Positions 833 to 60,864 of a stretch of DNA of 64,000 nt are shown here, in pieces. Every line of letters starts with the position of its first letter. Position 1 is the first letter of the stretch. The notes beneath the pieces were generated by a model. That model was given only the letters and a program-made list of their open reading frames with translations, was not told the origin of the DNA and searched no databases. Source of the stretch: Terramyces sp. JEL0728 (Eukaryota > Chytridiomycota > Chytridiomycetes > Rhizophydiales > Terramycetaceae); assembly GCA_027603945.1 (NCBI GenBank), contig JADIIU010000035.1:1-64000 (forward strand). The letters run 5' to 3'. A program made the translations under genes and the position numbers.

Positions 833-3800
833 ATGAAATCTCAAAAGGGCACACCAAACCAAAAGAAACAAACCACATTAACATCATTTTTCACTCCCAA
901 AACTCCGAAAACCCCAACGCATCCAAAGTCTCACAATGTGTTGAGCGATCACAAGAAGAATGTAGAGACTGACGATAACCGTGAACCAGTAAAGAAGAAG
1001 CTAGTCGTGGAAGAAAGTGAAAAGCCAATTAAAAAACAGAAGCGCAACGTTGTAATCAGCGATGATGAAGGTGCATTCATGTAACCGTAGATATGGAAGT
1101 TGGGCCAGTTAAATTTCCATCAACACCAGCTGTCGACTTGAATAGCTTCAAGATGAGTCCATCTCCGCGCGATCCAAAGTGTAATGCAAAGCTAATCATA
1201 GCTACTCCGCGAAAAATTGAAAGTACTCCTTCTAAACTTAAACCACAATCAAGAACCGAAAAGTTTAAAGAAAAGAATGAAGAAAGATACTCCTGGCTAT
1301 TGGATGTTAGAGACGAAAACAAGAGAACTGTCAGTGATCCAGACTATGATCCTCGAACATTGTATGTACCGAAAAGTGCGTGGAATTCATTCACACCGTT
1401 TGAAAAGCAATTTTGGGAAATCAAGAGCAAGCACTGGGATACGGTTGTGTTCTTCAAGAAGGGCAAGTTTTTTGAATTGTATGAAAACGACGCTGATATT
1501 GGACATCAACAATTTGATTTGAAATTAACTGACAGAGTCAATATGCGCATGGTTGGCGTTCCAGAAAGCAGTTTCCATCACTGGGCATCCCAATTCATTG
1601 CAAAAGGGTACAAAGTCGCCAAAGTCGAGCAAATGGAAAATGCAATTGGAAAATCAATCAGAGATAAAGAAACCCCTTCAAAGAAGGACGACAAAATTAT
1701 TAGACGTGAGCTGACTTCTGTTTTGACTTCCGGAACAATTGTAGACGGGGGATTGCTAACCACTGACATGAGCACTTTTTGCATGTCAATCAAAGAAGAA
1801 CAGCCAAATCCTAATTTACCTCCCCACTTTGGGATTTCGTTTGTCGACACTGCAACTTCAGAATTCAACGTGTCTTATTTCCAAGATGATATTAGTCGCA
1901 CTCAATTTGAAACCTTGATCACCCAAGTAAAGCCAAAAGAATTGGTGCTAGAAAAAGTAAGTGTCGCTAACAAAAGGGCGGAATTTCAAAGGAAAGTATG
2001 AAGATCTTGAGAAATAACTTGGACAATCCATTATATAACTTTCTTACCAAGCAAACTGAATTTTGGAATGCAGAGATCACTACTGATGAACTGAATCGAG
2101 GGATATACTTTAAACAGGATAGCAGCATGGATGTAGATATGGACGACGCTTTGAAATTTAGTATTTTGCCCTAATGCTAGAATGTTGGCCAGAAGCAATT
2201 CAAAAAATCAGCAAGGAGCCTGTTGCGCTATCAGCCTTTGGAGGATTGCTTTCCTATCTCAGAACTGTACGTATTTTTAACGTTAGCTGAAGTTGGATCG
2301 ATCCCTGCTTTCCGCCAGCAACATCCATTCTTATGATCCAGTGAGATCATCCAATAGTTTGATTCTTGATGGCCAGACTTTGATTAATTTGGAAATTTTC
2401 CAAAACACTAATGATGGAGGGGATAAAGGGACTCTATTTAAGCTTTTAAATCACTGTTCTACTCCTTTTGGAAAGAGGTTATTCAAACGCTGGCTGTGTT
2501 ATCCGTTACAGTCTGTTGAAGGCATCAATCGCCGTTTGGATGCTATAGAAGATCTGATTGGGCAATCTGCATTAGTTGGTAACTACTAGTAACATAGATG
2601 ATTTGAAATTGTGTCTTAAAAAGCTGCCAGACTTGGAAAGGGTAATTTCACGAATCCATTCTGGAAATTGTCTGGTTAAAGATTTTGTTAATGCTCTAAA
2701 AGCGTTTGAATCAATTAAAGAAATTCTTGGCGAACTTGGAGAAACCAAGGACAAAGTCAAGTCTAGAGCGCTACTGAATATCATCAATTTCAATTTTCCA
2801 AAAGTCTTGGAAGAATCTATCCAGTATTTTAACGATTCTTTTGATCAAAAACTAGCATTTGACACTGGCAAAATCCAGTTGAACCCAGGGTATGACGAAA
2901 CCTACGATGAAATGGTTCAAACGATTAGCAAAGTTGAGCAGAAACTCGAGCAGTACAAGAAGGAATGCGAAAAGAAGATTGGGTGTAAAATTGCATACAA
3001 GGACATCGGAAAAGAAATCTATCAGCTTGAAGTGCCTCTTAAGCAAAAAGTTCCAAACGATTGGAATTCAATGTCCAAAACCAGCGCAGTGAACCGATAC
3101 TATACCTCCAATCTGCGCAATTTGATTAATGATCTTCTTGAAGCAAGAGAGCATTGCGAATCGGCAATGAGAACCATCAAAACTCGTGTTTATGGAAAGT
3201 TTGATGAAAACTACGATGCTTGGTACCACTAAATTAATGATAGGATGAAGATAATCAATAATATCGGTGAGCTGGACTGTTTGTTTAGTCTTGCCCAGTG
3301 TACAAAGAACTTGCAGGAGCCTGTTTGTAGACCTGAATTCATAGAAAGCAGTGTCAGTGTATTGGAAATGCAAGACATGCGCCATCCGTGTGTAATGGAA
3401 TCCGTTGGGTCGGATTATATTCCAAACGATGTCAACTTGGGCGGGGATAATTCGACAATGATACTTTTAACTGGTCCGAATATGGGTGGTAAATCTACTC
3501 TACTGCGCCAGGTAATTTATCTTTTATGCAGACTTGTATTGCTGTTATTATGGCACAGTTGGGCTGTTTTGTTCCAGCTTCAAAGTTTAGACTTGCTCCG
3601 TTTGACAGAATATTCACCAGGATTGGAGGTAATCTATGATTAATGTAGCAAACGACAACATTATGGCTGGTCAATCTACATTCATGGTGGAGTTGTCGGA
3701 AACCTCCAAAATCTTAAAGGACGCGACTCCCCGATCACTTGTGATTCTTGATGAATTAGGCAGAGGAACTTCTACATTTGACGGGTATGCGATTGCGTAT

Positions 3801-4190
3801 GCGGTCCTGTACCACTTGATTGTCAATATTGGCTGTTTGGGGCTTTTTAGCACCCACTATGGAACACTCACAGACGAATTTGAAAAGAACCCATTGGTGT
3901 CCCTAAAGTACATGAGTTTCCACGTGGATCAGGAAAGTAAGCAGGTGGTATTTCTGTACAAGCTAGTGGATGGCAAGTGTCCGGAATCCTATGGAATGAA
4001 TGTTGCCAAGATGGCGAATATCCCATCTTCAATTGTAGCATACGCGGAACAAGTCGCAGAAGAATTTGAAAAGACCCAAATACTAAAAGCAAAAGAAGTT
4101 GAAAGCGACTGCAGCTTGACCACTTTGGCTTCATTTAAGGGAATCGTATCTGGTGAAAACCTCAAAAACATTTGGAAAAGTCTTCAATAA
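833..4190 (+). CDS. MSH6: DNA mismatch repair protein MSH6 (MutS homologue)
   Basis: MSH6 pairs with MSH2 to recognise base mismatches and small loops in nuclear DNA. The frame is restored by removing eight GT-AG introns of 19-21 nt at 1071-1090, 1957-1976, 2161-2180, 2267-2286, 2579-2597, 3223-3243, 3512-3531 and 3629-3648, giving 1065 residues. Residues 13-20 are a canonical PCNA-binding PIP box (QTTLTSFF), as in other MSH6 proteins. The mismatch-binding domain follows with the F-x-E motif in [10 protein letters not shown]; the ATPase has Walker [10 protein letters not shown], the MutS signature around LDELGRGTS and STHYG. No PWWP domain is present, as usual in fungi. The start at 833 is chosen because it precedes the PIP box directly. 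A TATA-like run lies near 744. Confidence 0.95.
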
Positions 4191-7332: not shown

Positions 7333-7964
7333 TCAACTGATTGAATGTTTCTTTGTCCTACCAATGGTGTTTGTCAACTCCCTTTGCATTGTTGGGAATC
7401 TGGATTCGGATCGATTTTGGTGTTCCATAATGAATGTGCTCAGTGTGTAGTGATTCCGGTCTTCATGCAGGAATCCAGGCTCCATTTCAATGTCCCGACT
7501 GGAATTAAATGATATCCTTTTAATTTCTTCAAGGACACTGTTCCGTTTTTCCTGTAAGGTCACTTCCAGTTTGGAACTTTTTCTGAATAATTTTACGGGA
7601 TTCTAAATTAGACAGTAATAGTTACATTTCCTCTACTCTTCATCCAGAATATTCCTGCCGCGCCTATTATCAAAACTACTGCTATAAAAATTATGAACGA
7701 GGTCAGAGTAAAGTATGTCGGATCCCCAGAGTTTTCAGCAGATTTAGCTGCTGGGGTATTTGTGGAGGAAGAGATGTGAGTGAAATCCTTTGTTTCACTG
7801 GGAATAGGTGTAAACTGGGAATGCGGTGCTTTCGAGCTGGATATTAGTGGAGCTTGCTGGGAGACTGCGGGTATCTGAGCTATTTGGTGGACTAACGTTG
7901 AACTGCTCGTGGATCCAGTTTTAGAATTGGAATATCGAATTGTGGACAAACTAGAATAATTCAT
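7333..7964 (-). CDS. Single-pass Ser/Thr-rich surface-type protein
   Basis: Two exons joined by a 23-nt intron give 202 residues. The ATG at 7964 is the first in frame. A Ser/Thr/Pro-rich extracellular part (1-80) is followed by a membrane span (~85-107) and a basic junction (MKSRGN); the intron falls exactly after this junction in phase 0. The tail is charged. There is no clear signal peptide, so the span may act as a signal-anchor. It is divergently paired with the next gene, 140 bp between starts, and that gene has the same design. No family recognised. Confidence 0.65.
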
Positions 7965-8910: not shown

Positions 8911-10958
8911 ATGCGAAGACTGATTCTCTTTGAAGGGTTAATAGCAACCGGTATTAGAAATTTAACTTAAGCACACTCTCATTGGAATGAGGATTTTTTG
9001 AATTGTTCTATTGCAAACAAGACCAATAATGAAATTAAACAACAGGCACTGTATTTGGGAGCAGCACGACCAACCCATCCAGTTCCTCACACAGTCGCCG
9101 GGAACCCAACTTTGGCTGTTTTGCCAACCAATCCTGTAGATCCCATCAATATCCCAGTTGAAACAACAATTCATGCGGTACCGATTCAATAATTATAGAT
9201 TCACACCACCAATAATGTTCAAACAACGAACGACCCAATTCAAACTACATCTATTTTTACTTCTGATGCTTCGGAAATTAGCAATATGATTACCATAACA
9301 AGCACATCCATTATTACAACGCCAGTAGAAGACACCGTCAGTACCAGTGCCTCGGTGGTGTCTTGGACTACTCCATGGGGCACATCTCAAACAAGCGATA
9401 CCGGTTTGGCTAGTTCAACTGATTCTAATTCGGTTGGTCCGACGATATCAGACACTGCGACCCAAATTAGTGCAAGTTCTAGTTCTTTAGTGACCACATT
9501 GACGCCAACTACCACCGTAGACACAACATCACTGTCAACCGATATCTCTATTACTTTGGCGGAATCTACAACGCTGGCCATCTCCCAAACAAGTGACACG
9601 ATTACAATTATTAGCACCACTCCTGAGCAGTCAAGCGACAGTTCTACAATAACAACTACTCAAGCAAGCGACAGTTCTACAATAACAACTAGTCAAGCAA
9701 GCGACAGTTCTACAATAACAACAATTCAGAGCTCTGCCAGTCAATCAGATACTACTAGCGCTTCTGAGACAACGAGTCAGGCAGCCACTAGTTACACTAT
9801 TTCGACAGACACTACTTTTTCGACCTCGACTCAATTTTCATTGACTGTTACCGAAACAAGCTCAACTAACGTGTCAGTTTTAATCCAAAACACTTCTATT
9901 CCGAATAATAAATCCATACCATTTCCCAACGATGACGGTGGAACAACCGCGAACAACGTAAGGCTAGGGCTGATTATTGGAGGAAGTGCGTTGTTTTTAG
10001 CTGTCCTGGGTATCTTTGCAATTCGAACAGTTGGGCTAAGGGTAACTCTATTTTCATTTAGGCTTCTGATAAGTTCCAGTCGCGATTGAATAATTCATTT
10101 GAGGATTTAGAGAGTGATCGTTCACCTTTCACCCCAAGGAAACTACCCGCAACAGATCCTAAATCCCCTTTGACTTCAAGAGAATACGGTTCCTTGCTTT
10201 CGGCAGACAGTGCACAGATTCCACCATCGAATTACAACTATTCAGCACCGTATTCCTACAACAGCTCGACACCTCAACCCTGGGCTAACAATACCTCATA
10301 TCCTTATCGCTCTGCTTATGCATACCAATCTGCACTGCCAAGTAATGTTTACTGCAATGCATCTAACTCGACCTCACCTCAAAATTGGAATCCATATTCC
10401 CAAAGTGATCCAGGAAATTCGTCGAGTATATATCAATCTAATGAAAATCTACATACCCCTATATCTCACTCAGATTTGGGGAATTCTGGGCCAAATGCTC
10501 CATCTACTGCTGCATTCAGTAATAGTGCAGACGCTATCCAATCCGTCCCAAATTCGTCACCTCCTGGATTGAATTCGAGTTCGCAGAGCGCTACCTACAC
10601 TCCGCCAAGCCTTCAACCGGGGAGTATAACTCCAAATTTATCCAACAGTGGGTCAAATGGATCATTTCAAATCCCTGCCACATCTATTCCGTACGTACCA
10701 GGTACGCCTGGTATTAAATTCCCAACGCAGAATCCAACTTTTATTAAATACGCCAATGTATTTCGTCGCCCAAATGAGGAAACCCCAGTCGATCTACCCA
10801 TACTTGCTAATTCCATTAACACTGGAATGCCTCCAATTTTTGCAAAATCGCCATCAATTGAAGATTCAGCTGTCTTGCCAATTCTTGATAATAGAAAACG
10901 TGAAGGTGACACAAACATCTCAGATATGCCGCCAATTAGACAGCTGCCAAAGCAATAA
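8911..10958 (+). CDS. Mucin-like single-pass protein, paralogue 1 of tandem set
   Basis: Three introns (21, 21 and 20 nt) give 661 residues. The start at 8911 encodes a signal peptide (MRRLILFEGLIATAHS) split by the first intron. The ectodomain is a long Ser/Thr mucin-like stretch with three copies of a 12-residue unit (SDSSTITTTQA and variants). The span near residue 338-360 (core LGLIIGGSALFLAVLGIFA) is followed at once by a phase-0 intron and the juxtamembrane module ASDKFQSRL, then SPFTPRK, an Asn/Ser/Tyr/Pro-rich tail, and C-terminal short motifs VLPILD and DMPPI. The same span, module and tail motifs recur in the next gene. Probable heavily glycosylated surface protein; signalling role unproven. 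Confidence 0.75.
9632..9733 (+). repeat. 36-bp tandem repeat coding for SDSSTITTxQA
   Basis: Nearly three consecutive 36-bp units (AGCGACAGTTCTACAATAAC core) in the mucin-like ectodomain at 8911-10958, differing by a few bases. In-frame repeat, likely a site of length change. Confidence 0.85.
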
Positions 10959-11062: not shown

Positions 11063-12641
11063 ATGAAAAAACTAATTGCATTCACCTTAGTCGCAAGGAT
11101 AAGCAATTGCAGATTGATAATAGCGCGCTCATTGGATATCGGAACTGGCGAGATAGACACTGGTAATGCGGACCAAACATATATTCAACTTCCTTCTCAA
11201 CCCACTTTTCCAGTACAGCCTACTCAACAGTTGATTGCAACTAGTAATTATCAGGTAGCAGTTGGGGATGTACCATCAACGGGGGAAACTACGAATCCTG
11301 CCACTACTATAATGGCAACGACAGATCCCCCGACAACTGCTGTAGTGACCAGCAGTCTCCCTACAACAATTGCTGCGACATCTAATGTGTGGACCACTAG
11401 TATTCCACCACCTACATCTGCTATAACAGCCATACAAACAACTGTTGGCTCCATATCTACCTTGGTTACAACAAATCAAATTACTTTGACATCTACAATA
11501 TTGCCAACTGCAACTCTTACAAATACAAGTATCCCTCTACCTGATACTGGAGACTCAAGCTTGGATACAATCAAGCTGGGTTTAATAATCGGTGCTTGTG
11601 CAATATTCCTGGCTGGTTTGGGGATTTTTGCATTTAGGACAATTAATCTAAGAGTAATTGTTATTAATTCAGGCATCTGACAAATTCAAGTCTAGATTGA
11701 ACGATTCAATGCAATCGTTTGAAGACGATTCGTCCCCATTTCCCGCAAGGAAGCCATTGCCTAACGATCAGTATCCGTCAAATGTTAGAGAGCATGAATC
11801 CTTCTTTTCTCCTGACGGCACTCCTAGACCATCTGTGGATTACGGCAGGAATTCGCCATATGCATACACTTCTGCAATTCCACAAACAATCTTTGATTAT
11901 TCCAAATACCCGCACAAAAATGTATACGCCAATGATTCGCAGATGCCATCCTATGACTATTCTTCTTTGAAAGCAGCTAACACTTCCGGACCGAATGATT
12001 ATAATTCACAGCCTGGATATCCAAAATATGGGGGCATCGGGACAAGTGTTTCTTCAGCACCAAACCCTGCCGCCGTCTATTCTAATTATAACTCTAGTCC
12101 GTCTTCTTGTCCGCCAGAGATGAATTACTCTAACGGCCCAACATCACAGAGCTCATTTCCTAGCCCCCAGAATTATTCAAACAATAATCCGACAGCTTCT
12201 GCACCCAATACTGGTATTTCTCCTAACGATCAATATTTCCCCGCTGCTAGTGGAGTCACTCCAAGGTCTTCTTTCACCTATTCTGGAGTGCCAGTTCCTA
12301 TAAATAATCCCGCCTACAATTGGAAAGCTAGTGATCCTACACAGAAATACTACCAGCGAGTTGGAAACAATCCTCTCTATGTAATTCCTCAAAGAAATAC
12401 TGCGCCAACCGATACTGAGGATAACATTACTGCTGAAATACCATTACTAGACGAATCCGACAAGCCTGAAATACCAATACTTGACGAATCTCACATGCCT
12501 AAAAGACTTTTAATGTCTCAAGTAGACACAGCAGAAGACTCTGCCCCAGCAATTCCACTGCTTGATGATCGTAATAGCAGACAAGAAACCTTGGATATGC
12601 CACCAATTATCGATTCTAAAAACAATAATAGTTCTTTATAA
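11063..12641 (+). CDS. Mucin-like single-pass protein, paralogue 2 of tandem set
   Basis: Two exons with a 19-nt phase-0 intron encode 519 residues. The N-terminus MKKLIAFTLVARISNC looks like a signal peptide. A Thr/Pro-rich ectodomain leads to a span at ~172-195 (core LGLIIGACAIFLAGLGIFA), nearly identical to that of the upstream gene, then the intron, then ASDKFKSRL, SPFPARK and a long Asn/Ser/Tyr/Pro-rich tail. The C-terminus carries repeated IPLLDES/IPILDES/IPLLDDR units and DMPPI. These linear motifs are conserved with the upstream paralogue whereas the ectodomains have diverged, which suggests a constrained cytoplasmic interaction. Confidence 0.75.
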
Positions 12642-12700: not shown

Positions 12701-13457
12701 ATGTCAACAAAAGCCCCAATTCCAACTTCTGTTCAAGTTGAAGCCCACACGACAGTACCGGCCGTTTCGTCGATTACAATCCGCTCCACAGATAATTTTG
12801 TTCCAACTGCCAATGCCAATCCTACAGCTTGGAGTCCAACAACAAACAATATCTTGACTACAAATGTATTACCAATACCTTTGCTTAAAAGTACCGATTC
12901 AGCATTGCAGCATACATCCGAGTATGCTCAGTTATACCCATCTACGACAGTCGATACAAATACCACGATGGCAGATCAAAACGGATCAAATTTCTCTTCT
13001 GATTTGAAACTAGGATTGATTCTTGGTATATCAGCAATAGCAATTGGAGTCCTCGGGATTTTTATTTTCAGAAAGATATACTTGACCTCTTCAGATAAAT
13101 TTCAACACAGATTAACAGAGTCGTTCGGGACATTACACAAAGAAAGCTTCCACCCATTTGCGAAACGGACAGCAGTTTACAGTGATTCTGGTTCATTGAA
13201 TTCTACACCTAATGTGTCTGTGGTTGAGAACAATCGACCCAGCGCAGACGAGATTTACGACCCAGATACGCGCCGGTACCATGAACCAGAACCAACAATC
13301 CAAGGACACTTGTATTACCATGTAGACGTAGTCCACCCTGTACATTACGGGGTGAGCACCACATTAGATACACATGGTAAATAGTACTAATTTAGGGAAC
13401 TATGTAGCTGAAGATGAAAGCATTCTGGAATCCGCTAAATCCTCAATTTCTTTATAA
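12701..13457 (+). CDS. Single-pass surface protein, shorter paralogue 3 of tandem set
   Basis: The frame from ATG 12701 runs through a Thr/Ser-rich ectodomain, a span at ~103-125 (core LGLILGISAIAIGVLGIFI) and the module TSSDKFQHRLTES, clearly homologous to ASDKFxSRL in the two upstream genes, but here without the intron that both carry at this point. A 19-nt intron near the 3' end (acceptor TTTAG) bypasses a stop and extends the product to 13457, 245 residues. The long Asn/Pro-rich tail and DMPPI end are missing. No clear signal peptide is visible; a short first exon could be missed. Confidence 0.65.
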
Positions 13458-13508: not shown

Positions 13509-14913
<1,405 letters not shown>

Positions 14914-15130
14914 TTGAGATTGAAAATTTTCAACAAGGGTTTTTTGTTGGAAATTCTGGTGGTAATTGTCCCTCCACATAGCCAGCTACATTCTAGCTGT
15001 TGCGCACTACCTAATAGTCGTATTTATTATTCCCTTTTCGGTCAGTAACCTTGCAAGGTAGAGGAATCATACACGCATAGCAGGAATATCAAAAATGAAA
15101 ATAAATATTAATAGGTATACATATTATTGT

Positions 15131-15626: not shown

Positions 15627-17377
15627 TTAGCACTTTAATTGCCAGTTGCCTCCATTCTTTGCTACAGCCAGCTCTTGCATAATCTTGGAGTACATTGCAG
15701 GCTGTGGTTGCGTTCCATACTCTTCCTTCCATTTCTGATTCAATTCCTGTTTCTTTAATACATCTTTTTGTCTAAACATTGCTATAGCAGTGTACCTGAA
15801 TTGGTCTTGCAACTCATTTCCACTTCGCTTCAGCACCACAATGTCGTCTTTGATTGTAATACAAAGCGACTGGATTTGCTGTTTAATCAAGTCTTCTGTA
15901 ACACTAGCTAGTTTAGATTTAGGTACTAGGTTAATTGAAAGTTACGGTCAATTTGCTGGTTAAATAATTCAATAATTCTAGTAATACCAGTAGCTCCACC
16001 GGATAGTATTTGTTTAATCAAGGAATCGACTCTATCTTGTAAATTTGAGCCTTCAATCTTGAATTTTGCCGGCGAATTAATTACTTTGGTCTTGGCTGTT
16101 ACTTTCTGAGTAGGTTTAACTGCTGCACCAGTCATTTGGCCAAGGGAAATGTCTGCATCGGATTGAATATTAGTTGCGTTTCTTTCTGCTACTTCAGAAT
16201 AAACCACAGAAAAATCCTGCTCTTCCGGGACTTTTAATATCCATCTTCTATCTTCTCCAAGCACTGCAATTTCTCTAAACATATTCTGCGACATTGCATT
16301 CGGCAATTTGCACACTTGAGCAAATTCAGATCTCATTACAGATTCATTTTGCAAGAATTGACCCAATAGATAATTTCTAGCTGCAAGTGGTCTGTCCTTG
16401 TACAGAAATCTGCTTTTTATAATCCAAATCCCTGCTGTTACAATATAGTACCTCTAATCACCACTGCTACTTGCTCCAGCATTGAAATCAAATCTATGGG
16501 ATCGCAATCAAACAGTTCCTCTATACTGGAGAATCCAATTGCATGAGCATTGAGTAACAGTGCAAGTAATCGTTCGTGAAGAGTGAACCCGGCAGTTTGA
16601 TTAAATGCCATCGCCACTTTAAATGTAGGAACTTGAGTATCTTTTGATGTAATCTCTCCCAGATAATTTGAAATTTCTTCAACTTCATGCTCGCATTCTT
16701 GTTTCAGATAATCCATTTGTATCTTTGAGTCTTCCGAATCTTCATTAAAATAAAATACCAGGCTCATTAATACGCAGCTCAACCCATGGCTCTCTACTAG
16801 TCTGCTGCTGCAAATGCAACTGCTGGATATTTTCCAAGTTTCCCATTTTGATTGTCTTTGCTTCCTCCTCATAATTTGGATTGATATCCTTCATATCTTC
16901 AAAATTCGACTTTAATTTCAATTGTTTTTCGGCCTCCTGATGCTTGTCGATATGTGATAGTACCGGCCTTAGCTGATAAACAGATGTAATCTCTGTCAAG
17001 TGTAACGTGTCTCATTAGTCAGATTCTTACCGTCTACATTAATAAAAATAACCTTCAAATAGCCCAACCATGTATTTCCCAGTCTTTGGAACTTGAAATG
17101 AATCCAGCTGAATGGTTTTTAGGTCGGCTTGGTATTCCTGGTTCCTGAATTCATCGTAATGAGCAGGATTATCCAGTGGCAAATCAATCTGCAGCTTGTT
17201 TGCATTTGGTTTTATCCTGGCTTGCTTGGGGTGGTTGGTAAACGGCTTTGATCTCGTTGGAAATTGCAAGAAGAGCAAGTTTTGAGTATCAGTAAAATTA
17301 ATTTTATAACTTTCAACTATTGGATCGTCTTTGGTATCCATCTGTTCGTCTACCGGTTCTTTCTTTACTACAACCAT
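15627..17377 (-). CDS. RPC37: DNA-directed RNA polymerase III subunit RPC5 (POLR3E/RPC37 family)
   Basis: RPC5 with RPC4 forms the TFIIF-like subcomplex of RNA polymerase III, needed for initiation and termination on tRNA and 5S genes. Five introns (19, 20, 19, 20, 20 nt) give 550 residues. The N-terminal dimerisation region shows the family pattern NLLFLQFPTRSKPF, then KLQIDLPLD and KYMVGLFED; the next conserved strand (DTLHLTEI and YQLRP) is reached only after two introns flanking a 3-nt microexon (17031-17033). The C-terminal half is helical, as expected of the winged-helix region. The ATG at 17377 is only 32 bp from the divergent calcipressin start. Confidence 0.88.
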
Positions 17378-46833: not shown

Positions 46834-47783
46834 TTATATAAATTCCTTCTCCATGCCGAGCAGAACATTATCAATAATTCTAGTATTTCCTACTTTGATA
46901 GCACCGCTGAGGATAGCACCTTCTTTGCCTACAGTCTCTACTTCAGTTAGGGACAATGGTTCGGCGATAGAAAGGTATTCCAATTTGATATTCTTTTCTT
47001 GTAAAATCACCTGCTCTGCTTTTCGAATCAACTCCTTTCTGTCTCGTACCCCAGCTCCAAATGCCGCAATGGCTGCTTGCATTCCCTTGTACAAAATTGG
47101 TGCTAATTCTCTTTCCTGTGGAGAAAGATATCTGTTACGGGAACTCATGGCTAATCCATCTAATTCTCTTTTTGTTTCTGCAACAACAATTTTCAAATTA
47201 AAGTGCAAGTCGCGAACCATAGTCCTGACTACTGAACATTGCTGAACATCTTTTTGGCCAAAGAAAGCATGAGTTGGTTGAATGATATTGAACAATTTGG
47301 TAACTACTGTTGCAACTCCTCTGAAAAAGTGTGGTCTGATGCTTCCTTCCATCTGATGCGACTTTCCTAATACTTGCACAAAAGTTCCCGCTTGCTGGTC
47401 CACTTGTAACGGAATTCCAGCAGGGTACATTTCAGCTACACTCGGAACAAATACGACATTGGTGTTTACTTTGGCCAGCAAGTCCAAATCTGACTCCAGG
47501 GTCTTTGGATATTTATTCAAATCTTCGTGTGGAGCAAATTGTGCTGGGTTTACAAATATAGATGCGACTGCAACATCACAGTTGGATTTTGCCAATTCAG
47601 CTAGACTGGTATGTCCAGTATGTAATGCCCCCTTTGTAAATAAAAGAATACCATGGTTGGCACAAATCCAACGGTTTTTCCTTGTCTGTACCACTCATTT
47701 CTCAGCTGCTGGTATTCTTTGATGGTATGCACTACTTTTGGCCTTGAACTGAGTTTTCGAATTTGGATTGCGAGTCTTTGCAT
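46834..47783 (-). CDS. PAN6: Pantothenate synthetase (pantoate-beta-alanine ligase)
   Basis: Last step of pantothenate (vitamin B5) synthesis, ATP + pantoate + beta-alanine. One 20-nt intron restores the ATP-binding motif FVPTM-GALHTGHTSL (HxGH type) and gives 309 residues. Other motifs: SIFVNPAQFAPHEDLNKYP, FFRGVATVVTKLFNII, AFFGQKDVQQ and the second signature GLAMSSRNRYLS. Start: ATG 47783 yields a basic, Ser-containing presequence (MQRLAIQIRKLSSRPK); an in-frame ATG at 47834 adds 17 residues. Confidence 0.94.
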
Positions 47784-47902
47784 CTTGGAAAATTTAGGCG
47801 GTTGGATCGGCACGCATATCTGTTGCATTAACATATGATCTGGAACGCCCGTCAGTTTCCAGTTACAGTAAGGCTGCTGGCCAATTCAAAATTAATAATT
47901 AT

Positions 47903-49792: not shown

Positions 49793-50298
49793 TTAAGCAA
49801 AATAGCCTAGTAGAGCGATAAAGGGACCCAAGGCATAGCTGTACTCGGAGGCAGAGTTTTTAACTTGCTGGACGATGGCGGTTGGTGTGCTGGTTGCTGA
49901 AGTAGCTGCCGATGCGGAATTTGGGGATCCAGCCTTTGCCGTGATTGTATGGGTTTGTTGGAAAAATACTTGCCATGCAGGAGGGACCGGGAGATTGAGT
50001 GCATTTAGTCCGACTGATGCGCATAAGCTATTCATCTCAGGCACAACATTATTTTCCAAATCTTGCTGGACAGTGACATTTCCGGGACACTGTTGATAGC
50101 ACAAAGATTGATGGTACATTTGATAGCACAGGCATTGGTTGTAATACGTAGGGCTGCTGGTTTGAATCATGGCACATGTGGTTTCCTTGTAGTTTTCAAT
50201 AATGTCCAAACACGGTTGAAAGTTTGTCAACGAGCAATCTTGGGACCTTGCAGCTGAAATTAAAGCGAATTACCAGCAATCAATAATGCAAATATCAT
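49793..50298 (-). CDS. Cys-rich secreted protein with GPI-type C-terminus
   Basis: A 20-nt intron joins a signal-peptide exon (ATG 50298, MIFALLIAA) to the body; 161 residues. Eight cysteines fall in the first ~75 residues after the signal (DC...CLD...CAM...CLCYQ...CYQQC...LCA). A Ser/Thr/Ala stretch follows and the last 15 residues are hydrophobic (LGPFIALLGYFA), typical of a GPI-anchor signal. It may be a small CFEM-like or wall-anchored protein, though the eight-Cys CFEM pattern is not clear. Confidence 0.65.
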
Positions 50299-50922: not shown

Positions 50923-51441
50923 ATGGGAAAAGGAACTGAAAGCGAAGAACAAGACAGACTACTCCCTATAGCAAACGTAGCTCGAATAATGAAAAGAGGT
51001 CTGCCTGAAAATGCCAAGATTGCCAAAGATGCAAAAGAGTGTATACAGGTACCTGGCTGCTTAATCTAGGAATGCGTATCAGAATTTATATCATTTGTAA
51101 CATCTGAAGGTACTCGTTCCTAATTCAGCCAGCGATAGGTGTGTCCATGAAAAAAGAAAGACTATAAATGCAGAGGATATCTTGTGGGCTATCCAATCTC
51201 TAGGATTTGATTCCTACCACGATACATTGAATTTATATTTGGTGAAATACCGTGAAGTAAGTGAAATTAATACCAGTCTTTAAAGTCTGATAAGCCAAAG
51301 GAAGAAGAGACTCATGCCAAGCCGAGTATGGATCTATTGCGGGCGATGCAGAACCAGCAACTGGCTGCACGATTGCAGGGGCAGCTGGATGGACAGCAGT
51401 TTCAGCTAAATCGAAATGATCCGCAGAATTTCAATTACTAG
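50923..51441 (+). CDS. HAP3: CCAAT-binding factor subunit NF-YB/HAP3 (histone fold)
   Basis: HAP3 pairs with HAP5 and HAP2 to bind CCAAT boxes and regulate respiratory and other genes. Three introns (21 nt at 51049-51069, then 19 and 20 nt) break the frame, so no exon is long; joined they encode 152 residues. The NF-YB core is present: [53 protein letters not shown], and [19 protein letters not shown]. The C-terminal tail is Gln-rich. ATG 50923 starts 15 codons before the core. Confidence 0.92.
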
Positions 51442-51469: not shown

Positions 51470-52789
51470 TTAATCCCAGTCTGGAATCACTTTTTGATCA
51501 CTATGGCACATTTGCTGGTATTCCTGCTCTGTCAAAGACATTTTCTTTGCCTGCTTCATGAAGGCTTCAAAAGTACACAATGATAGATCATTTCTATAGT
51601 GATCTTTAGGTGCCTTACAAGCGGGAATTGCTATTGATTCGCCATTGTACTTCATTTGGACGTAGCCTTTTGATTTGGATGAGGGATATGGCTTCTTTTC
51701 TTGGAAATATTCAAATGTAAGTGACGATCCAAATCCAGGGTACGGATAGTCGCCATCGAATGCTCTGAAGGATATTAATAGTGGGATGATGGTCCTTGGT
51801 TTAGTTTGAATTACGAGTCGTGTCCAGAAAAGATTGCCATTTTTGGAGTGTTTGGAATGGCATTCCTCATATCTTCCATAGGTTTAAATAGTTCTGGGAT
51901 GAATCGTCCAATCGCTCTTTTCGTGAAATTGTCATCCTTTTCATATAAGCGGGCCCTTGGATTATTAGGATATTACCACAAATCAATAGTCAACCCTTCC
52001 AACTTACCATGATCATCTTCAGTAACTCCCTTGGGCAATTCAATGCCGTTGCCGACCATGCAGCTGAACACATCGTACAGTCGATACACTTGGTTTTCGT
52101 TGGATTTAGTGCCATGCATCGTGTGCCAAAACGACAATGGGTTCAGCACGCTAACTAGTCTCTGTTGGTGTTTCTTTGCGAAAAGATCCCTTAATATCTT
52201 TGTGTCGTATACCATGGACGAACACGCATCGTGGGGATACATGGTTTCATGTTCGGTATCTTTAACAAGGACCTTTGGACTTCCAATAGTGTCCTTTTTC
52301 GGATATAAACCATGCAATAAATATTGTAGCGATTCAACAGTCCTTAGATAGTTGGTGGAACGAAGTGCAATTTCAGCTGATTCTGTATTCCAGACAGGAG
52401 AGAGTAGTTTGCCAAGATAATGCTCTCGCAACCATTTACCGACATTTTGCATTCCGTTTTTCCCAGCATCAGTCAACTGTCCTGAAAAGCAACGTTTAAT
52501 ACGTGTTTACCATTGATTGTGTTTTACCTTTTCCAATTGTTTTTGCAATTCATCCTTTCCGCTTTGTCCAAATTCAAAATCCAATTCGTGATTGCTTTCT
52601 GTTGTCAATGTCAGTTACCGTGTACTTTATGGAACGCTGCATAGAAGCTGGGTAGGACATTGCATAATTTCCATTGCGGAGCACTTGGGAAATGACTGGT
52701 TGAAAACACTGGGGATCTTGCCCCTTTATTATCTAGTAGTTACCATGTCTGTGAATAAATAGGACTTGCTGTAATTCGAGATTGTCCAT
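51470..52789 (-). CDS. Histidine acid phosphatase-like protein (clade 2)
   Basis: Five introns (four of 20-21 nt and one of 51 nt) give 395 residues. RHG motif: FIHRHGARSPVF near the N-terminus; later WxTESAEIALRSTNYLRTVES-type helix and the proton-donor motif GHDST restored across a 20-nt intron. No signal peptide, so it is probably intracellular, like ACP6/LPAP-type members rather than secreted phytases. The 51-nt intron ends ...GGACAG; the internal ...TTTTCAG acceptor would put the following exon out of frame. Substrate unknown. Confidence 0.85.
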
Positions 52790-53288
52790 TTCAACTTTAG
52801 ACAAAATAAATTTACATGCATGCCGATTAGATTCCAGATGAAAATTGCTCAAAGAATCAGCGATACGGATACTCAAGACATTGCAACTGCTTTCAGGACC
52901 ATCTCGAGACTTGTGTGGAACAACCTGCTCTCACTTGATTTAGTATAGTTACTGCAGCTCTCAGTCCAATAGCTTTCCCTAGATGGCTGCTTACCTAATT
53001 GCGGGAAAAGGGGTATCGAGATGCTTACATAATCCATCTTTTTCAAAGTTGCTTAGCTAATGTGGCGCGAACCAGTCCTTGAAATATTGCATATCAAGTG
53101 CTGGCTGCAGATAAGAAGCATTACAGAGCCGGCAAAATTAAGACACCCCTACTCCAAACCACTTGCTTCCACTTTTTCCGGGCTGAATTCATGCATTAAC
53201 TAATCTTTGACTTTAACATTGATAGCTGTGGCGCAAATCACTGATTTTGTATAAAATGCTCGAAAAAACTGAATCGAGTCAACTAATA
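52790..53288. promoter_or_regulatory. Divergent intergenic region (499 bp) with MET6 TATA box
   Basis: TATAAAAT at 53250-53257 is 39 bp before the MET6 ATG. A 44-codon + strand frame (from ATG 52820) is present but unsupported. Confidence 0.5.
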
Positions 53289-55614
53289 ATGGTCTCCTCA
53301 TCTAACCTCGGATTCCCACGTATGTCTGCCAACAGAGAGCTTAAAAAGCTCGTCGAAGCCTACTGGGCAGGCAAAGTAGATCACCAAGCCCTGGTTAACG
53401 GTGCCAAGGTAATATTATAATTGACATCAGGAATTGCGTGCCCTCCACTGGAAAATCCAAAAAGATGCTGGAATTGAATCCATTCCATCCAACGACTACT
53501 CTCTCTACGATCACGTTCTTGATCACTTGTTTGTCTTTGGTGCAATTCCATCCAGATATGCAAACATCCCAAGCGCTACCGACAAATACTTTGCCATGGG
53601 CCGTGGTCTTCAAAGACCAGCTGAAGGCATCGATGTGCCAGCCATGGAAATGAAAAAATGGTTCGACACCAACTACCACTACATTGTCGGTGAATTCTCT
53701 CCTTCAACCAAATTCCACCTTCAAGATACCAAGCCAGTAGACCAATATCTTGAAGCAAAGGCTCTTGGAATCCAAACCCGTCCAGTTGTTCTCGGACCTG
53801 TTTCCTTCCTTGCTCTTGGCAAAGAATCCAGCGATGCTCCAGCTGGATTCGACAGATTGTCTCTTTTGGACTCTCTTCTTCCTGTATATGTTGAATTACT
53901 CACCAAGTTGCAAGCTGCTGGTGCTGAATGGGTTCAAGTCGACGAACCAATTCTTTCTCTTGACAGATCTGCTGAATACAAAGCATACTTTGCAAAAGCA
54001 TACGCCGCCCTTACTGCTGCTGCTCCACAATTGAAGTTCTTTTTGGCCTCTTACTTTGGAAGATATTCAAGCAACTTGGACTTTGTTGCCGACCTTCCTA
54101 TCCACGCTATCCACATTGATGCCGTCCGCGCACCAGCAGATGTTGATGCTGTTGTTTCCAGAGTCCAAGGAAAGACCCTCAAAGTTTCCGTCGGTGTTGT
54201 TAACGGAAGAAACATCTGGAAAAACAACTTGGCTCAGTCCATTGCAACTGTAAAGAAGGTTATTGCTGCCGTTGGTGCTGACAGAGTCATCGTTGCTCCA
54301 TCTTGCTCCCTTCTCCACACCCCACACTCCCTTGCTTCTGAAAAGAAGATGGATGCTCAAATCAAGAACTGGATGGCTTTCTCTGTTGAAAAGCTCCACG
54401 AAATCGCGACCATCGTAAAGGCTATCACTGCTCCAGGATCTGTTGATGCTGTCCTTGCTGAAAACGCTCACGCTCACGAACTCAGAAAGACTTCCGCTCT
54501 TATCCACAACCCTGAAGTTCAGGCTGAATTGAAGGCTATTGTTCCAGAAAACTTTAGACGTTTAAGCAAGTTTGAAGTTCGTGCTCAAAAGCAGCAACAA
54601 AAACTCAACCTCCCACTCTACCCAACCACCACTGTCGGATCTTTCCCACAAACCAAGGAAGTCCGTGTTGCTCGTCAAAAGTTCAAGAAGGGAGAAACCA
54701 CCCTCGAACAATACAATGCTTTCATCAACAGCGAAATCCAAAAGACTGTCAAGTTCCAAGAAGAAGTTGGTCTTGATATGCTTGTACACGGTGAATTCGA
54801 AAGAAACGATATGGTTGAATACTTTGGTGAAAACTTGAAGGGTTACGTCTTTTCCGAATACGGATGGGTTCAATCTTACGGATCTCGTTGCGTCAAACCA
54901 CCAATTATTTTCGGGGATGTTTCCCGCCCATATGCCATGACTGTTGAAACCTCAGTCTACGCTCAATCCCTCACCAAGCTCCCAATGAAGGGTATGTTGA
55001 CTGGCCCAGTTACCATGCTCCAATGGTCTTTTGTTCGTGACGATCAACCAAGATCCGAAACCACCTACCAAATTGCTCTTGCTCTTAGAAAGGAAGTTTC
55101 CGACCTTGCAAAGGCAGGAATCCCAGCCATTCAAATCGACGAACCTGCTATCCGTGAAGGCCTGCCACTTTTGAAGGAAGATCAAGATGCTTATCTTGAC
55201 TGGGCTGTCAAATCATTCTTGTTGGCCACCACCAATGTTCCAGACGAAACTCAAATCCACACCCACATGTGCTACTCTGATTTCAACGATATTTTCCCAG
55301 CTATCCAAGCTTTAGATGCCGACTGTATCACCATCGAAAACAGCAAGTCTGATCTTAAACTTTTACGTGCTTTCGAAAAGTATGGATATACCAACGGAAT
55401 TGGTCCAGGTCTTTACGACATCCACTCTCCTCGTGTTCCACCTGCTGATGAAATGAAGAGCCGTCTTTCTGCCATCAACAAATACATCAAGACCAACCTT
55501 TTGTGGGTTAACCCAGATTGTGGTCTTAAGACTAGAGGATGGACTGAAACTGAAGCTGCACTTAGAAACATGTGTGAAGTTGCTAAACAAGCACGTTCTG
55601 CTCCAATTGCTTAA
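53289..55614 (+). CDS. MET6: Cobalamin-independent methionine synthase (MetE)
   Basis: Transfers a methyl group from 5-methyl-tetrahydropteroyl-polyglutamate to homocysteine. One 22-nt intron after GAK joins the first exon (NLGFPRMSANRELK) to the body; 767 residues. Both barrels are present; the catalytic zinc ligands His and Cys appear in HTHMCYSDF, and Cys again in VNPDCGLKTR, with the substrate motif QIDEPAIREG. Codon use is visibly biased to a small set (AAG, ATC, CCA, GCT), unlike most neighbours, as expected for a strongly expressed gene. Confidence 0.97.
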
Positions 55615-56832: not shown

Positions 56833-58399
56833 ATGGAAATCATTGTACTGCCATATTAATAAAGGATATTGACTCTGATTTCGAAGTAACTCCCGCTCCA
56901 TTGAAAGACAAGATGGTTCCAAACAATGTGGTGATTTTGGACTCTGATGATGATTTTGCCCCGCAGGGTTTAGCTATCAATCCAACTCCTGAGAAACGAC
57001 TATTTTTTTGGGATTCAGGCGACAAAGGGTTGGACTTTGAAACCAAATACCAGTATCAAGAAAAGTCAAAGGAATATCAAGTGAGTATTGATTCTGAAGA
57101 TTCAGACTTTGAATCTTCAGTAAATAACTCACAACCGACCTTTAAGTCGGAGCAGCAATTATTGCAAAAGGAGCAGGAGTTGTTGCAAGAGTCCGAAATG
57201 CCAGATATATCTAAAATGTTGGAAAAGGAAAGGAAAAAGAACGAAAAGGCAAATCAGTTGAAAATAGAGCGGCTGCAGAGACAGATGAAGAAAGAACAGG
57301 AAAAGAACATTCGACTGGAGAACAAACTTAAATTAAAGCAAATTAGAGAAGAAGAAAAGGAAGAAAAAAGGAGAGAAAAACAAAAGGAAAAGGAAACTCA
57401 AGACTTGGAATCCGTTGGGAAGAAAGCAATCCAGACTGCAAATAAATTGCGACAAAAGATCGAATGTGCCAGGGAAGTTATTGCGCATCTGTGCAAAAAC
57501 TGGAACCAAAATGACCCTTTTCTTAATACATCCCTCAAAGAAGTCGGTGTAGAAACTAGAATCGAAACCACAGCAGTCAAAAATTCAATGACTCTGACAC
57601 ACAAAGTAGATCGGATTTATGATTTTGAAAATTCAATATGGAATCCCTGTTCGCTCCGACTTGAGAAATTACCTTATATTCTAATTATGCTTTCGGCCAT
57701 GGACATTGCAGAAATCCTAAAAAGCGATCAGAGTCTCATGAATTACTTTACCGATTGCACCTCAAAATATAAAGGAGATACTATCATTTTTCTAGTTGTC
57801 GGACTGCCAGAGTACTACAAGGCATTCAGCAGCGCACAAACAGCAATTCGAAACGATGAAATTAGAGAACAGCTTACAAGTGAAAAAAGAAAGAAAAGAA
57901 AGGCAAATGATATTTTGGATGGTCCTGACAAGAAAACAATAGAGCGAGAGTTGATCTTGCTGCAGATATTTGGCAAGGGTAAATGCAAAATACATACCTG
58001 CAACAAAGTAGATATCCACGGTTTCATTGTATCCTTTATACAACAGATTGCTCTATTTCCAGACATGTAGTAATTCTTGTTTAATCCAGTATCAAATCAT
58101 CTGAATACAATCAATTGGCATTTGGAGATTCCATCAAATCTGGGAAAGATGGGCAAGACACTTGGATAAAGATGATTGAAAAGATACCAGGCGTGACCGA
58201 ACGAATGGCCATTGGAATAAGCCAAAGGTACTCTAATTTAGGAAGGCTAATGACACTGGTAGAGAGTTACAGAGATCTAGTGGGTATTCCATATCAGACA
58301 AATATGGGCAGTAGAGATTATAGAATAGGTGAAAGTGTAGCCAAGCGCATATACTCTGTTTTCTTTGGCCAAGATCCAAATATGCCTGTAATCAATTAG
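56833..58399 (+). CDS. EME1: Crossover-junction endonuclease subunit EME1
   Basis: Non-catalytic partner of MUS81 in a 3'-flap/Holliday-junction nuclease. Two introns (20 and 23 nt) give 507 residues. The N-terminus holds SUMO-interaction-like VVILDSDDD and DSEDSDFES acidic patches, then a long coiled coil, the ERCC4-like nuclease fold without the catalytic ERK-D motif, and a C-terminal tandem HhH region (MIEKIPGVTERMAIGISQRY). The first exon is only four codons (MEII) before a 20-nt intron, which explains the frame break at the start. Confidence 0.86.
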
Positions 58400-58423
58400 T
58401 GCGGTTATTTATAAATATATTCT

Positions 58424-60864
58424 TTATTGGCTTGCTTCAGGTGCCCAATGTCCCCCGCAAAAACAGATGTCCTGGTAGGCATTTTGCCAGGGAGGCATAT
58501 TCTGGAAAATTGCAAAAGATTCATCCAGCTCAATGTCGGCCTGTGTGTGTTGTAGACAGCGTGTGCAGCGATTCAGTTTGGACGTACTGCGGATATTGTG
58601 TTTGGTAATGACATCTATTTTGCTCAGGTGTCTTTTTGGCCCGTTAATGAGAATAGTTAGCGTTTCGGCTTCAGGCTTTTGATACAGCTTTTCAAACATT
58701 GATTTGAATCGCGGCTTAATTGAATCCATCGACGGTTTGAAGTGCGGATCAACAGCAGCTTGTAGCAAGAGTATAGATTCTGCACGGAGTAAGGGCTGGG
58801 AATCACTAACAAGGGCATCTAAAGAATTAAATTCCAGGAAAATGCCTATCATAGAATCCAAATTAGGTCTGTCTTTCTTCAGCGCTGCATCAATTCGTTG
58901 CAGGTATGCATTTCTGCTGTGAGCCTCAACACTCGATGAACTAATTGTGATGTTGGCAAATTGTTTGTTGATTGCTTCCAGATTGAGCTGGAACAGTTTG
59001 ACAAAGTACAACAGCTGCAGTACTAGCCTTCTGCAATTTCTGTTTAATGCAAATATTAGCGGCGACCCGTCTAAATTAATAAAAGAATACTTTTAAAGTC
59101 TGGCTCTTTTCTAGTCAAGTAGGAATACAAGTGCATTACCACGCAGGATGTAAAGTCTTGTACCCAGAGAGCTAACGGAACCATGTGATGGATCGCTCCT
59201 TTCTGGAATTGCAAATCAGGTTTGTTGTGGAAATCTGCTATTTGGGTAATCTTGTTGGAAATTTGCGAATCTTCATTAGTACTTTTTACTTGTCCATTCA
59301 AGAGCTTTGAATTGGTTAACCAGAGAGCGGCAAAATAAATCTTTGATCAAACAAAGCTCAAGGATGTTGAACGAGTTGCGTAAAGGCCAAGAGTTTGGTT
59401 GTAGAATTCTGGATTAGCTGTTACTTACTTGGTGGTGTAAAATAGTAGCTGGAATACCTCGATATGCTCTTCCAAAGTGTGGATTTTACTGAACGGGATT
59501 GGACTGCTGATTTCCTGCATTTCTTCGTATTTAATGATCACGCTATTGATGAATTTCTCTGCAAGGTCTGGAATAAATAAATAGTTACCAGGCTTAATTG
59601 ATTCTCTAATTAATATCGACACATCCAACAAATCGTGCTTGTTTAATGCACTGCAAACAACCAGCGCTGCAAGGCTGTTCAGGTTTTTATCAGCCAAACC
59701 AGGATTCAAGGCAAATCCCTTGATCTTTTCTTTGCTTACTACAAGTAACTCTGATTTTCCAAACACGTCTACTCCTAGTTGAATTGTATGAATTCCATTT
59801 GGAGACAATATAGGCAATACCGGTTTGTAATTCATTTTAAATAATTGGGTTTTATCAACGGACGGGTATTTTGGCTCATTACTAAAGAAATTGCTAAAGA
59901 CGTCAATCTGCATGTCATCCTTGAGGTCATCCGGAGGTAGCGTATCAGGGACTAGTATATTTCCCATCTCCTTCACATCCAATGACGGCAACATCCTGTA
60001 CTCATTTAACCCATCCAGGTATCCAATAAATAAATAATTCTTCATCGCCATCACACACGAGATATTAGAAACATATTTTTCGGCAACTAGTTTCCATCCA
60101 CTTGAATTTTCGTAGACGTGGATTAAACTTTGGTCCATAAGATCGGATACAGTAACAAAATGATGGGTTGATAATTCTATAAACTTAATTGGCTGTTGGT
60201 ATGGAACTTTGTCTATATGTTGGATGGAGACTTTTTGATTCGCCAGGTCAATAGCGACAGTCGCAATGATGATTTCTGAAGAAACTCCAATTACGGATAC
60301 AGAGTTTTCTGGAATAAGAAAAATCTACCTTTGACCAATGCCTGAGCCATTGCTAATTCAACTGGTAAACTGCACGATATACAAGTAAACTCTCCTTCCA
60401 TAGTATCAAAATATACAGAGATTGCTGTTTGCCCAACTGAAATGAAGGCATAACTTCCAAACAATAAATCTGGACCCTGCTGAAACAGACCAGTCGGAGA
60501 ATACTACATAAAATGTTGGGTACCTGCTTGATGGGTTGATACCAAACTAGCTTATGAGGGAATTCTTGCAGCTTTACTTGCTTTACCATGTTGAAATTCT
60601 GAATGGTCTCTCCTAGCTTGAAAATCCCAAGGTCGAGTTTCTCATCCAAAATCATCAAGTAATTCCCGGTATAATCCCATTTTATCTGTATAATCTTTGA
60701 GTATCCTGTAGATATAATCGAGTAGTTCAACTGACTTTTACAATGGAATACAATTACAGTATTTGTCCTGAGTTATAAATAAAGTACTTTTTCAGTAGGA
60801 ATTCGTCGAATATGGTGTCTTGATCTGCGATGAGAGCAATTATATTCTTTACACTCCAGTCCAT
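58424..60864 (-). CDS. MED16: Mediator tail subunit MED16 (SIN4)
   Basis: MED16 is in the Mediator tail that receives activator signals. Six introns (19-23 nt) give 772 residues. N-terminal propeller-type repeats begin after MDWSVKNIIALIAD with IIQIKWDYTGNYLMILDE (typical IxCLxWxxxGxxL), then helical middle parts, and the C-terminal zinc-binding tail RCTRCLQHT with CFCGGHWAPE, the diagnostic MED16 end. Start ATG 60864 is followed by a 23-nt intron. Confidence 0.8.

Follow-up and report, generated by a model that had tools for sequence, protein, structure and literature searches.

Most genes of the fungus Terramyces sp. JEL0728 are interrupted by introns of about 20 nucleotides (nt), a length not far above the shortest introns known. 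We describe these introns from a 64,000-nt stretch of DNA, positions 1 to 64,000 of contig JADIIU010000035.1 (contig C35), hereafter called the window, and from a wider sample of the same assembly, which comprises 15.0 megabases in 231 contigs. We take Terramyces to belong to the order Rhizophydiales of the Chytridiomycota, and JEL0728 to be a strain in culture from the JEL collection. Fungal introns are GT-AG introns of the U2 type with a YTRAY branch site, and those of Terramyces are alike in this; the usual expectation for the length of a fungal intron is 50–100 nt. The existence of the short introns, their size, motifs and spacing, the reading frames restored by their removal and the homology of the resulting proteins were computed directly here. 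Judged from these sequence features, they are very probably genuine U2-type spliceosomal introns, shortened until their geometry is close to minimal and almost constant.

Intron lengths compared with decoy splice sites

We sampled 264,000 bases, made up of the window and 20 stretches of 10 kilobases (kb) from contigs C1–C20 (21 stretches on 21 of the 231 contigs), and analyzed them with an unsupervised Viterbi gene finder. Its codon scores were learned from the same data, every intron carried one fixed penalty, and all intron lengths of 12–250 nt had equal odds. The first run was flat in length and free of motifs, and its counts cover genes whose coding sequence reached 450 nt. It called 186 GT-AG introns, 76 at 17–26 nt and 58 at 19–21 nt. 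When GT-AG was replaced by each of ten decoy dinucleotide pairs (GC-AG, TG-GA, CA-TC, AC-CT, GA-TG, CT-GA, GT-AC, TC-AG, GT-TG and CT-AC), the same run called 153–193 introns per decoy, with 11–29 at 17–26 nt and 3–12 at 19–21 nt, and the largest decoy count in any 3-nt length bin between 12 and 61 nt was 15 introns. The excess of GT-AG over the decoys was 2.6–6.9 fold at 17–26 nt and about 5–19 fold at 19–21 nt, figures which include a bias towards GT-AG, since GT-AG models had served to train the codon scores. Outside 17–26 nt, GT-AG introns numbered 110, below every decoy (135–164). Longer introns are therefore rare.

In a second run, donor and acceptor weights were learned from the short class, lengths were still flat, and genes with at least 300 nt of coding sequence were counted. 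This run called 190 introns, of which 132 fell at 17–26 nt (two of 18 nt, 38 of 19, 62 of 20, 21 of 21, seven of 22, and one each of 23 and 24). The refined, final model added a length prior favouring short introns; the independent evidence on length is thus that of the first two runs, whereas the refined histogram favours short introns by design. With this model we found 261 introns in 172 genes (105 of them with introns), or 1.26 introns per kb of coding sequence; 253 measured 17–26 nt, with a mode of 20, and eight exceeded 26 nt. Short introns were present in all 21 stretches, and in the second and refined runs alike the dominant length class in genes across the sampled genome lay below 30 nt.

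Within the window, the refined model contains 25 intron-bearing genes and 64 introns (nine of 19 nt, 39 of 20, ten of 21, three of 22, two of 23 and one of 126). The first of these genes, MSH6, begins at 833, and the last ends at 60864. An earlier note on this DNA had given the same extent and eight introns of 19–21 nt in MSH6, and had proposed introns of about 20 nt, with 20 the mode, in a fungal gene set; all of this is borne out by the decoy test and the refined model. Its wording that nearly all interrupted genes use such introns holds for the dominant class and fails for rare longer introns, such as one of 62 nt in Isy1 described below.

Conserved proteins restored by splicing

MSH6 carries eight mini-introns, given here with the number of homologues (of 118 over 900 amino acids (aa)) in which the junction is gap-free, meaning that no gap lies within 8 residues on either side.

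833..4190, + strand, MSH6 gene; eight introns of 20, 20, 20, 20, 19, 21, 20 and 20 nt; from the gene model and from identity with P0001 via a copy on contig C55
1071..1090, + strand, MSH6 intron 1, GTGCATTCATGTAACCGTAG, 20 nt; gap-free in 1 of 118, variable region
1957..1976, + strand, MSH6 intron 2, GTAAGTGTCGCTAACAAAAG, 20 nt; gap-free in 116 of 118
2161..2180, + strand, MSH6 intron 3, GTATTTTGCCCTAATGCTAG, 20 nt; gap-free in 6 of 118, variable region
2267..2286, + strand, MSH6 intron 4, GTACGTATTTTTAACGTTAG, 20 nt; gap-free in 115 of 118
2579..2597, + strand, MSH6 intron 5, GTAACTACTAGTAACATAG, 19 nt; gap-free in 104 of 118
3223..3243, + strand, MSH6 intron 6, GTACCACTAAATTAATGATAG, 21 nt; gap-free in 116 of 118
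3512..3531, + strand, MSH6 intron 7, GTAATTTATCTTTTATGCAG, 20 nt; gap-free in 116 of 118
3629..3648, + strand, MSH6 intron 8, GTAATCTATGATTAATGTAG, 20 nt; gap-free in 118 of 118

The best database match of spliced MSH6 is P0001, the GenBank MSH6 of Terramyces sp. JEL0728, which agrees with the earlier assignment of the genome to a fungus. Three copies of the gene are present in the assembly, one in the window and two that start 5.2 kb apart on C55. Removal of the eight mini-introns from one C55 copy (L025) yields P0001 exactly (0 of 1065 residues different); the window copy differs from P0001 by six residues and the other C55 copy by five. All eight introns are equal in length in the three copies. 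Compared with the window copy, each C55 copy differs at 2 of 160 intron bases, and their exons differ at 17 and 37 of 3,198, mostly in the third codon position (10 of 17 and 22 of 37).

Near-identical kinase matches also occur ~29–62 kb apart on C3, C18, C26 and C42; together with the MSH6 copies on C55, this suggests segmental duplications or stitched haplotypes. In Globomyces sp. JEL0801, MSH6 (P0092) has a nine-residue insertion, RYNISFLND, relative to P0004. Back-translated by eye, it could be a retained 27-nt intron of the form GT..TTAAY..AG, a hint of short introns in Globomyces too.

Three further genes of the window were aligned with homologous chains.

13509..14979, − strand, proteasome subunit Rpt2; introns 14890-14910, 14812-14832, 14162-14183 and 13644-13664 (21, 21, 22 and 21 nt)
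37975..39299, − strand, fumarate hydratase; intron 38296-38315 (GTAAGCATCATTAACCCTAG); 434 of 434 residues ungapped against fumarase 5d6b, across one junction
50923..51441, + strand, NF-YB/HapC; introns 51049-51069, 51110-51128 and 51257-51276; a 40-nt exon separates the first from the second

Residues 23–461 of Rpt2 aligned with a 440-residue human Rpt2 chain; three junctions (aa 42, 251 and 417) were free of gaps, and two small indels lay elsewhere. Its first intron sits at the start methionine of the homologue, and its third splits the Walker A motif between GVPGT and GKT. Residues 8–98 of NF-YB aligned ungapped with HapC 4g91, across the junctions at aa 42 and 55. In Rpt2, NF-YB and fumarase together, no gap was found at the six junctions tested. 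Splicing thus restores conserved proteins in MSH6, Rpt2, NF-YB and fumarase, as the earlier note had claimed of genes in the window. Homology tests covered 17 of the 25 intron-bearing genes; stretches supported by MSH6, PDB or Pfam hold 33 of the 64 window junctions, in 14 of the 25 genes, with the eight of MSH6 counted via P0001 and with the proviso that a Pfam match spanning a junction is not proof that the junction itself is ungapped.

Intron sequence and spacing

The 253 short introns of the refined set share a donor that begins GTA in 89% and continues AATT-like. G at +5 occurs in 13–17% of the 19–21 nt classes and in 40% of the fifteen 22-nt introns. Their 3′ ends are TAG in 158, CAG in 66, AAG in 23 and GAG in six, and a branch site at the expected place matches YTRAY in 69% and YTAAY in 62%. 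GT-AG introns with such a branch site, which the earlier note had described, were found in all 21 stretches. If retained, 204 introns would shift the frame, 48 would introduce an in-frame stop and one would be read through, so that 252 of 253 would be disruptive, a count biased by the fact that stops partly drove the calling.

The branch A lies at position 14 in 111 introns and at position 15 in 103 (214 of 253 together), and the tail from the branch A to the last base is 5 nt in 129 and 6 nt in 94 (223 together). By length, 59 of 63 introns of 19 nt have the A at 14, 37 of 46 introns of 21 nt have it at 15, and those of 20 nt are divided between 14 (49 of 120) and 15 (61 of 120). The 19–21 nt range is therefore due to two near-fixed spacers, of 14–15 and 5–6 nt. 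The earlier note had placed the branch site within ~10 nt of the donor; it is the motif that begins at ~10, and the branch A is 14–15 nt in.

Because acceptor weights anchored at the 3′ end could favour the 5–6 nt spacing, we recounted the geometry on introns called without motifs. Among motif-free short introns (genes with at least 300 nt of coding sequence), 58 of 79 have TRAY 3–9 nt before the end; among 4,543 GT..AG strings of 19–21 nt that were not called, the share is 12.7%. In these 58 the A is at 14 in 26 and at 15 in 24, and the tail is 5 nt in 25 and 6 nt in 29. We considered and dropped the idea that branch strength breaks the intron-rich/weak-branch rule of PMC2483917; the commonest branch hexamer accounts for only 27 of 253 introns, which is like other intron-rich species. 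The unusual feature is the fixed branch position, not the strength of the branch motif.

Splicing factors and a proposed mechanism

Several features are those of U2-type introns: GT-AG ends with a YTRAY-type branch near the 3′ end, conserved proteins restored by splicing, and a genome that encodes U2 small nuclear RNA (snRNA) and branching factors. The U2 snRNA gave a 140-bit match with GUAGUA intact, so that its branch-binding site is canonical. We infer that the major spliceosome would remove the mini-introns by intron definition, with a GUA donor, a (U/C)UAAY branch read by the normal U2 snRNA, and a 3′ site formed by the AG about 5–6 nt after the branch A. Each intron would then consist of a 14–15 nt lariat loop (donor G to branch A) and a 5–6 nt tail, such that 19 is 14+5, 20 is 14+6 or 15+5, and 21 is 15+6. 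More speculatively, this tight loop may be accommodated partly by changes in the N-terminus of Isy1, with the plug of Cwc25 unchanged.

PMC9505925 proposes that tiny lariat loops clash with branching factors, and reports that the ciliate Stentor is without the N-terminal glycine plug of Cwc25 and that its Isy1 N-terminus is not conserved. Both factors are encoded in the Terramyces assembly. The N-terminus of Cwc25 is canonical (MGGGDLNLKKSWHP), and thus the Stentor-type loss of the plug was not found; an MGGG start occurs in 88 of 120 homologues among the matches listed. Isy1, at about 111.6–112.4 kb of C35 and hence on the same contig as the window, begins MAPKTLAQKQEDKLANILKKYDG instead of MARNEEKAQSMLYRF, a divergence of the Stentor type. 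In an alignment of 14 Isy1 proteins, those of Spizellomyces, Fimicolochytrium, Chytriomyces, an ascomycete, an animal and an alga have the canonical MAR..EKA start; the Geranomyces and Batrachochytrium entries begin at an internal MLYRF, the Blyttiomyces entry is partial, and the start is diverged in Terramyces, Boothiomyces, Globomyces, Kappamyces and Gorgonomyces. The best 120 of 371 homologues comprise 72 with the canonical start, 35 that begin at an internal MLxRF-like methionine and were apparently cut short in annotation, and 13 of neither type, including the entries of Boothiomyces, Globomyces, Kappamyces and Gorgonomyces. A tentative and, on balance, doubtful proposal is that the N-terminus of Isy1, which lies in the active site, was remodelled in a Rhizophydiales lineage (Terramyces, Boothiomyces, and probably Globomyces, Kappamyces and Gorgonomyces), that this lowered the minimum size of the lariat loop, and that introns then shrank to 14–15 plus 5–6 nt. 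If true, part of the Stentor change would have occurred a second time, independently, and Isy1 would be a testable determinant of minimum intron length.

The Isy1 gene itself has a 62-nt intron (C35:111767-111828, from locus L030). Once this is spliced out, the protein reads ELFEQAAQM, the Boothiomyces sequence; Globomyces has ELFEQAAEM. Near the start of the gene (C35:112289-112353; 1229-1293 of the reverse complement of L030) lie three motif-perfect mini-introns of 20, 20 and 21 nt, separated by 1 nt (A) and 3 nt (CAA), to read E-D-K-L-A. Runs of mini-introns may thus define exons of 1 and 3 nt in Isy1. The GenBank Isy1 of Boothiomyces is without DKL; the Terramyces equivalent, worked out by eye, would be one 69-nt intron with an 11-nt tail. 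Since the shortest of the 156 internal exons in the 264-kb sample is 40 nt, the array is exceptional under either reading.

Alternative explanations

One rival account is that some GT..AG pair will always be found to bridge a disrupted frame; the decoys bridged frames as well, 11–29 times per 264 kb at 17–26 nt, and some of the ab initio calls are surely wrong. As a general explanation, however, a gene-finding artefact is highly improbable in view of the GT-AG excess over all ten decoys, the branch motif present in introns called without it, and the conserved proteins restored by splicing. It is very unlikely that introns of ~20 nt are confined to a subset of genes while the bulk are ordinary introns of 50–100 nt missed by the model: the homologue-supported 62-nt intron of Isy1 points that way, as do the eight introns above 26 nt that the final model keeps despite disfavouring long ones, but longer GT-AG introns fell below every decoy in the flat-length test.

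The assembly does contain internal duplications, among them the near-identical kinase pairs on C3, C18, C26 and C42, yet insertions of 19–21 nt that start GTA, end AG and carry a branch motif are no type of error, and three MSH6 copies share eight introns of equal length while their exon differences lie mostly in the third codon position; sequencing or assembly indels, or pseudogenes, stand next to no chance as the explanation. The near-uniform size, odd for introns, would suit stretches that stay in the mRNA while the ribosome passes over them (bypass or programmed frameshifting), or that are cut out of the DNA like the internal eliminated sequences of ciliates. GT...YTAAY...AG is a spliceosomal signature, though, U2 snRNA, Isy1 and Cwc25 are encoded, and we know of no DNA elimination of the ciliate kind in fungi; the probability of such a process is very slight.

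Several points weigh against genuine U2-type mini-introns as a genome-wide class, or against parts of the account given above. The short-length prior of the final finder causes the count of longer introns to be underestimated, and the 62-nt Isy1 intron was missed by it; 31 of the 64 window introns are ab initio calls outside the homology support. P0001 is itself a gene model, and P0003, the public model of the window's own MSH6, is without 13 and 90 residues present in the spliced model, apparently through neighbouring mini-introns having been merged or misread. The Isy1 link concerns one clade, that is, one or few evolutionary events, with introns examined in Terramyces only. A search of the assembly with RF00003 gave no match for U1 snRNA, a negative made weak by the first-look filter.

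The earlier note had also asked for a check of U2 and U6; U2 proved to be present and canonical, as described, whereas U6 was not found in the whole assembly by Rfam, BLAST or patterns, a result again weakened by first-look filters. For U6, two patterns and BLAST with the fission-yeast sequence returned nothing, a third pattern gave one unrelated match, and a fourth gave two places that are not U6-like. An interrupted U6 gene is one possibility. Matches to RF00026 on C199 and C111 (27 bits), which have the look of a diverged U6, were rejected because they overlap a predicted coding exon of a membrane protein (presumably VMP1-like). Rfam at gathering scores returned nothing in the window, the 20 sampled stretches and six further loci.

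Comparison with known short introns

The closest parallels are introns of other eukaryotes. Stentor coeruleus (PMC9505925) likewise has genome-wide, near-uniform, tiny GT-AG introns with a GUA donor (its commonest intron starts GUAAUU), a near-fixed branch A, a canonical U2 branch-binding site and a non-conserved Isy1 N-terminus. Its introns differ in being 15–16 nt long, with the branch A at 10 or 11, no strong branch consensus and the GGG plug of Cwc25 lost, compared with 19–21 nt, a branch A at 14–15, YTAAY in 62% and the plug kept in Terramyces. The introns of the Bigelowiella natans nucleomorph, at 18–21 nt, are of the same size class and narrow range (PMC10245619). This is a relict endosymbiont nucleus whose introns are without a branch-point signature according to PMC2483917, whereas Terramyces presents a fungal nucleus with a clear branch site; the same paper also lists Paramecium and dicyemid introns as without the signature. 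The lengths that the earlier note quoted for Stentor and chlorarachniophyte nucleomorphs agree with these sources.

Mikrocytos mackini has very uniform introns of 16–17 nt with a conserved sequence, but only 224 of them, in a reduced parasite with a reduced spliceosome (PMC10245619); we modelled 261 in 264 kb, in a genome with Isy1 and Cwc25 present. Introns of 21–29 nt in Nyctotherus and 20–33 nt in Paramecium (PMC2633312) are similar in that retention tends to give a frameshift or stop, and differ in their broader range of lengths; for Nyctotherus, the authors of that paper found no branch motif. Type B introns of Trichomonas are about 25 nt, the shortest 23 (PMC12316389). Among fungi, Cryptococcus introns have a mean of 63 nt (survey PMC8476143), and compared with fungal introns in general those of Terramyces are about one third of the length, at the short extreme. 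No chytrid intron lengths were found in the available portions of PMC5364385 and PMC13391722, and among the titles and starts of abstracts listed by searches of the open-access literature we found no report of such introns in Terramyces, Rhizophydiales or other fungi. Thus, ultra-short introns are of a known kind, and their occurrence in Fungi is, as far as our searches reach, new within the open-access literature.

These introns bring genome-wide lengths of ~20 nt into the Fungi and bear on the question of how small an intron the spliceosome handles. The near-fixed spacing of donor, branch and acceptor can be read as the genome's own statement of the minimum geometry its spliceosome accepts, and this spacing, with the split result for the two branching factors, means that a fungus can now be used to test the old question of what sets the minimum length of an intron. 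Batrachochytrium, which belongs to the same order and has an annotated Isy1 that starts at the canonical MLYRF stretch, is a comparison partner. There is also a practical warning: mini-introns would be lost to filters such as that of a pan-eukaryotic survey of minor introns, which excluded introns <30 nt in all species (PMC10639083), and they were apparently merged or misread in the GenBank model P0003.

Other genes of the window

The remaining intron-bearing genes are as follows.

7333..7964, − strand, predicted membrane protein; intron 7603-7625 (23 nt); ab initio only
8911..10958, + strand, predicted Ser/Thr-rich membrane protein; introns 8951-8971, 9178-9198, 10042-10061; ab initio only
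11063..12641, + strand, predicted Ser/Thr-rich membrane protein; intron 11654-11672; ab initio only
12701..13457, + strand, predicted membrane protein; intron 13377-13395; ab initio only
15627..16894, − strand, RNA polymerase III subunit RPC5-like; introns 16740-16758, 16432-16451, 15926-15945; Pfam RPC5 (21-228) spans the first two junctions
17815..18259, + strand, predicted gene; introns 17870-17889, 18070-18089; ab initio only
19766..22374, + strand, kinesin (KIF9-like); introns 20026-20045, 20194-20213, 20814-20833, 21031-21051, 21618-21637; Pfam Kinesin (11-349) spans three junctions
25135..28615, + strand, P5-type ATPase; introns 25162-25181, 25387-25408, 27189-27208, 28136-28155; Pfam matches span two junctions
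28650..29803, − strand, predicted gene; introns 29327-29346 (20 nt) and 29586-29711 (126 nt, uncertain); ab initio only
29948..30981, − strand, Avl9-like; introns 30814-30833, 30739-30758, 30306-30324; two junctions fall within a weak match to Pfam Avl9 (25.9 bits against a cut-off of 22)
33266..34765, − strand, flavocytochrome b2-like; introns 34431-34450, 33907-33929, 33440-33459; Pfam FMN_dh (108-448) spans the second and third junctions
35084..35718, + strand, predicted membrane protein; intron 35432-35451; ab initio only
35741..36213, − strand, predicted gene; intron 35901-35920; ab initio only
36397..37821, + strand, aldehyde dehydrogenase; introns 36624-36643, 37096-37114; Pfam Aldedh (5-456) spans both junctions; no match in a PDB search at E 1e-75
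42510..44804, − strand, VID27-like; introns 44229-44249, 43458-43476, 42827-42846; Pfam VID27 (397-731) spans two junctions
46834..47828, − strand, pantoate-beta-alanine ligase; intron 47632-47651; Pfam match (31-315) spans the junction
49793..50298, − strand, predicted secreted protein; intron 50254-50273; ab initio only
51470..52452, − strand, histidine phosphatase; introns 51956-51976, 51795-51814; Pfam match (1-256) spans both junctions
53256..55614, + strand, cobalamin-independent methionine synthase; intron 53409-53430 (22 nt); Pfam Meth_synt_1 (15-330) spans the junction
56833..58399, + strand, predicted gene; introns 56845-56864, 58070-58089; ab initio only
58424..60864, − strand, Med16-like; introns 60768-60787, 60504-60523, 60309-60328, 59409-59428, 59271-59289, 59071-59090; ab initio; the Med16 C-terminal match (706-768) spans no junction

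Both strands of positions 4270-13457 contribute to a run of predicted single-pass membrane proteins, some Ser/Thr-rich; judged by eye, the three at 8911, 11063 and 12701 appear to be paralogues. Near-identical direct copies lie at 39515-41294 and 61867-63667, 22.4 kb apart (99% over two 300-nt stretches), and encode an intron-free protein of 470 aa. This tandem-copy protein and the products of 56833-58399 and 28650-29803 were the three of 15 proteins searched against Pfam that matched no family. An intron-free open reading frame at 22383-23321 has a YqaJ-like recombinase domain (Pfam), and possibly comes from a mobile or viral element.

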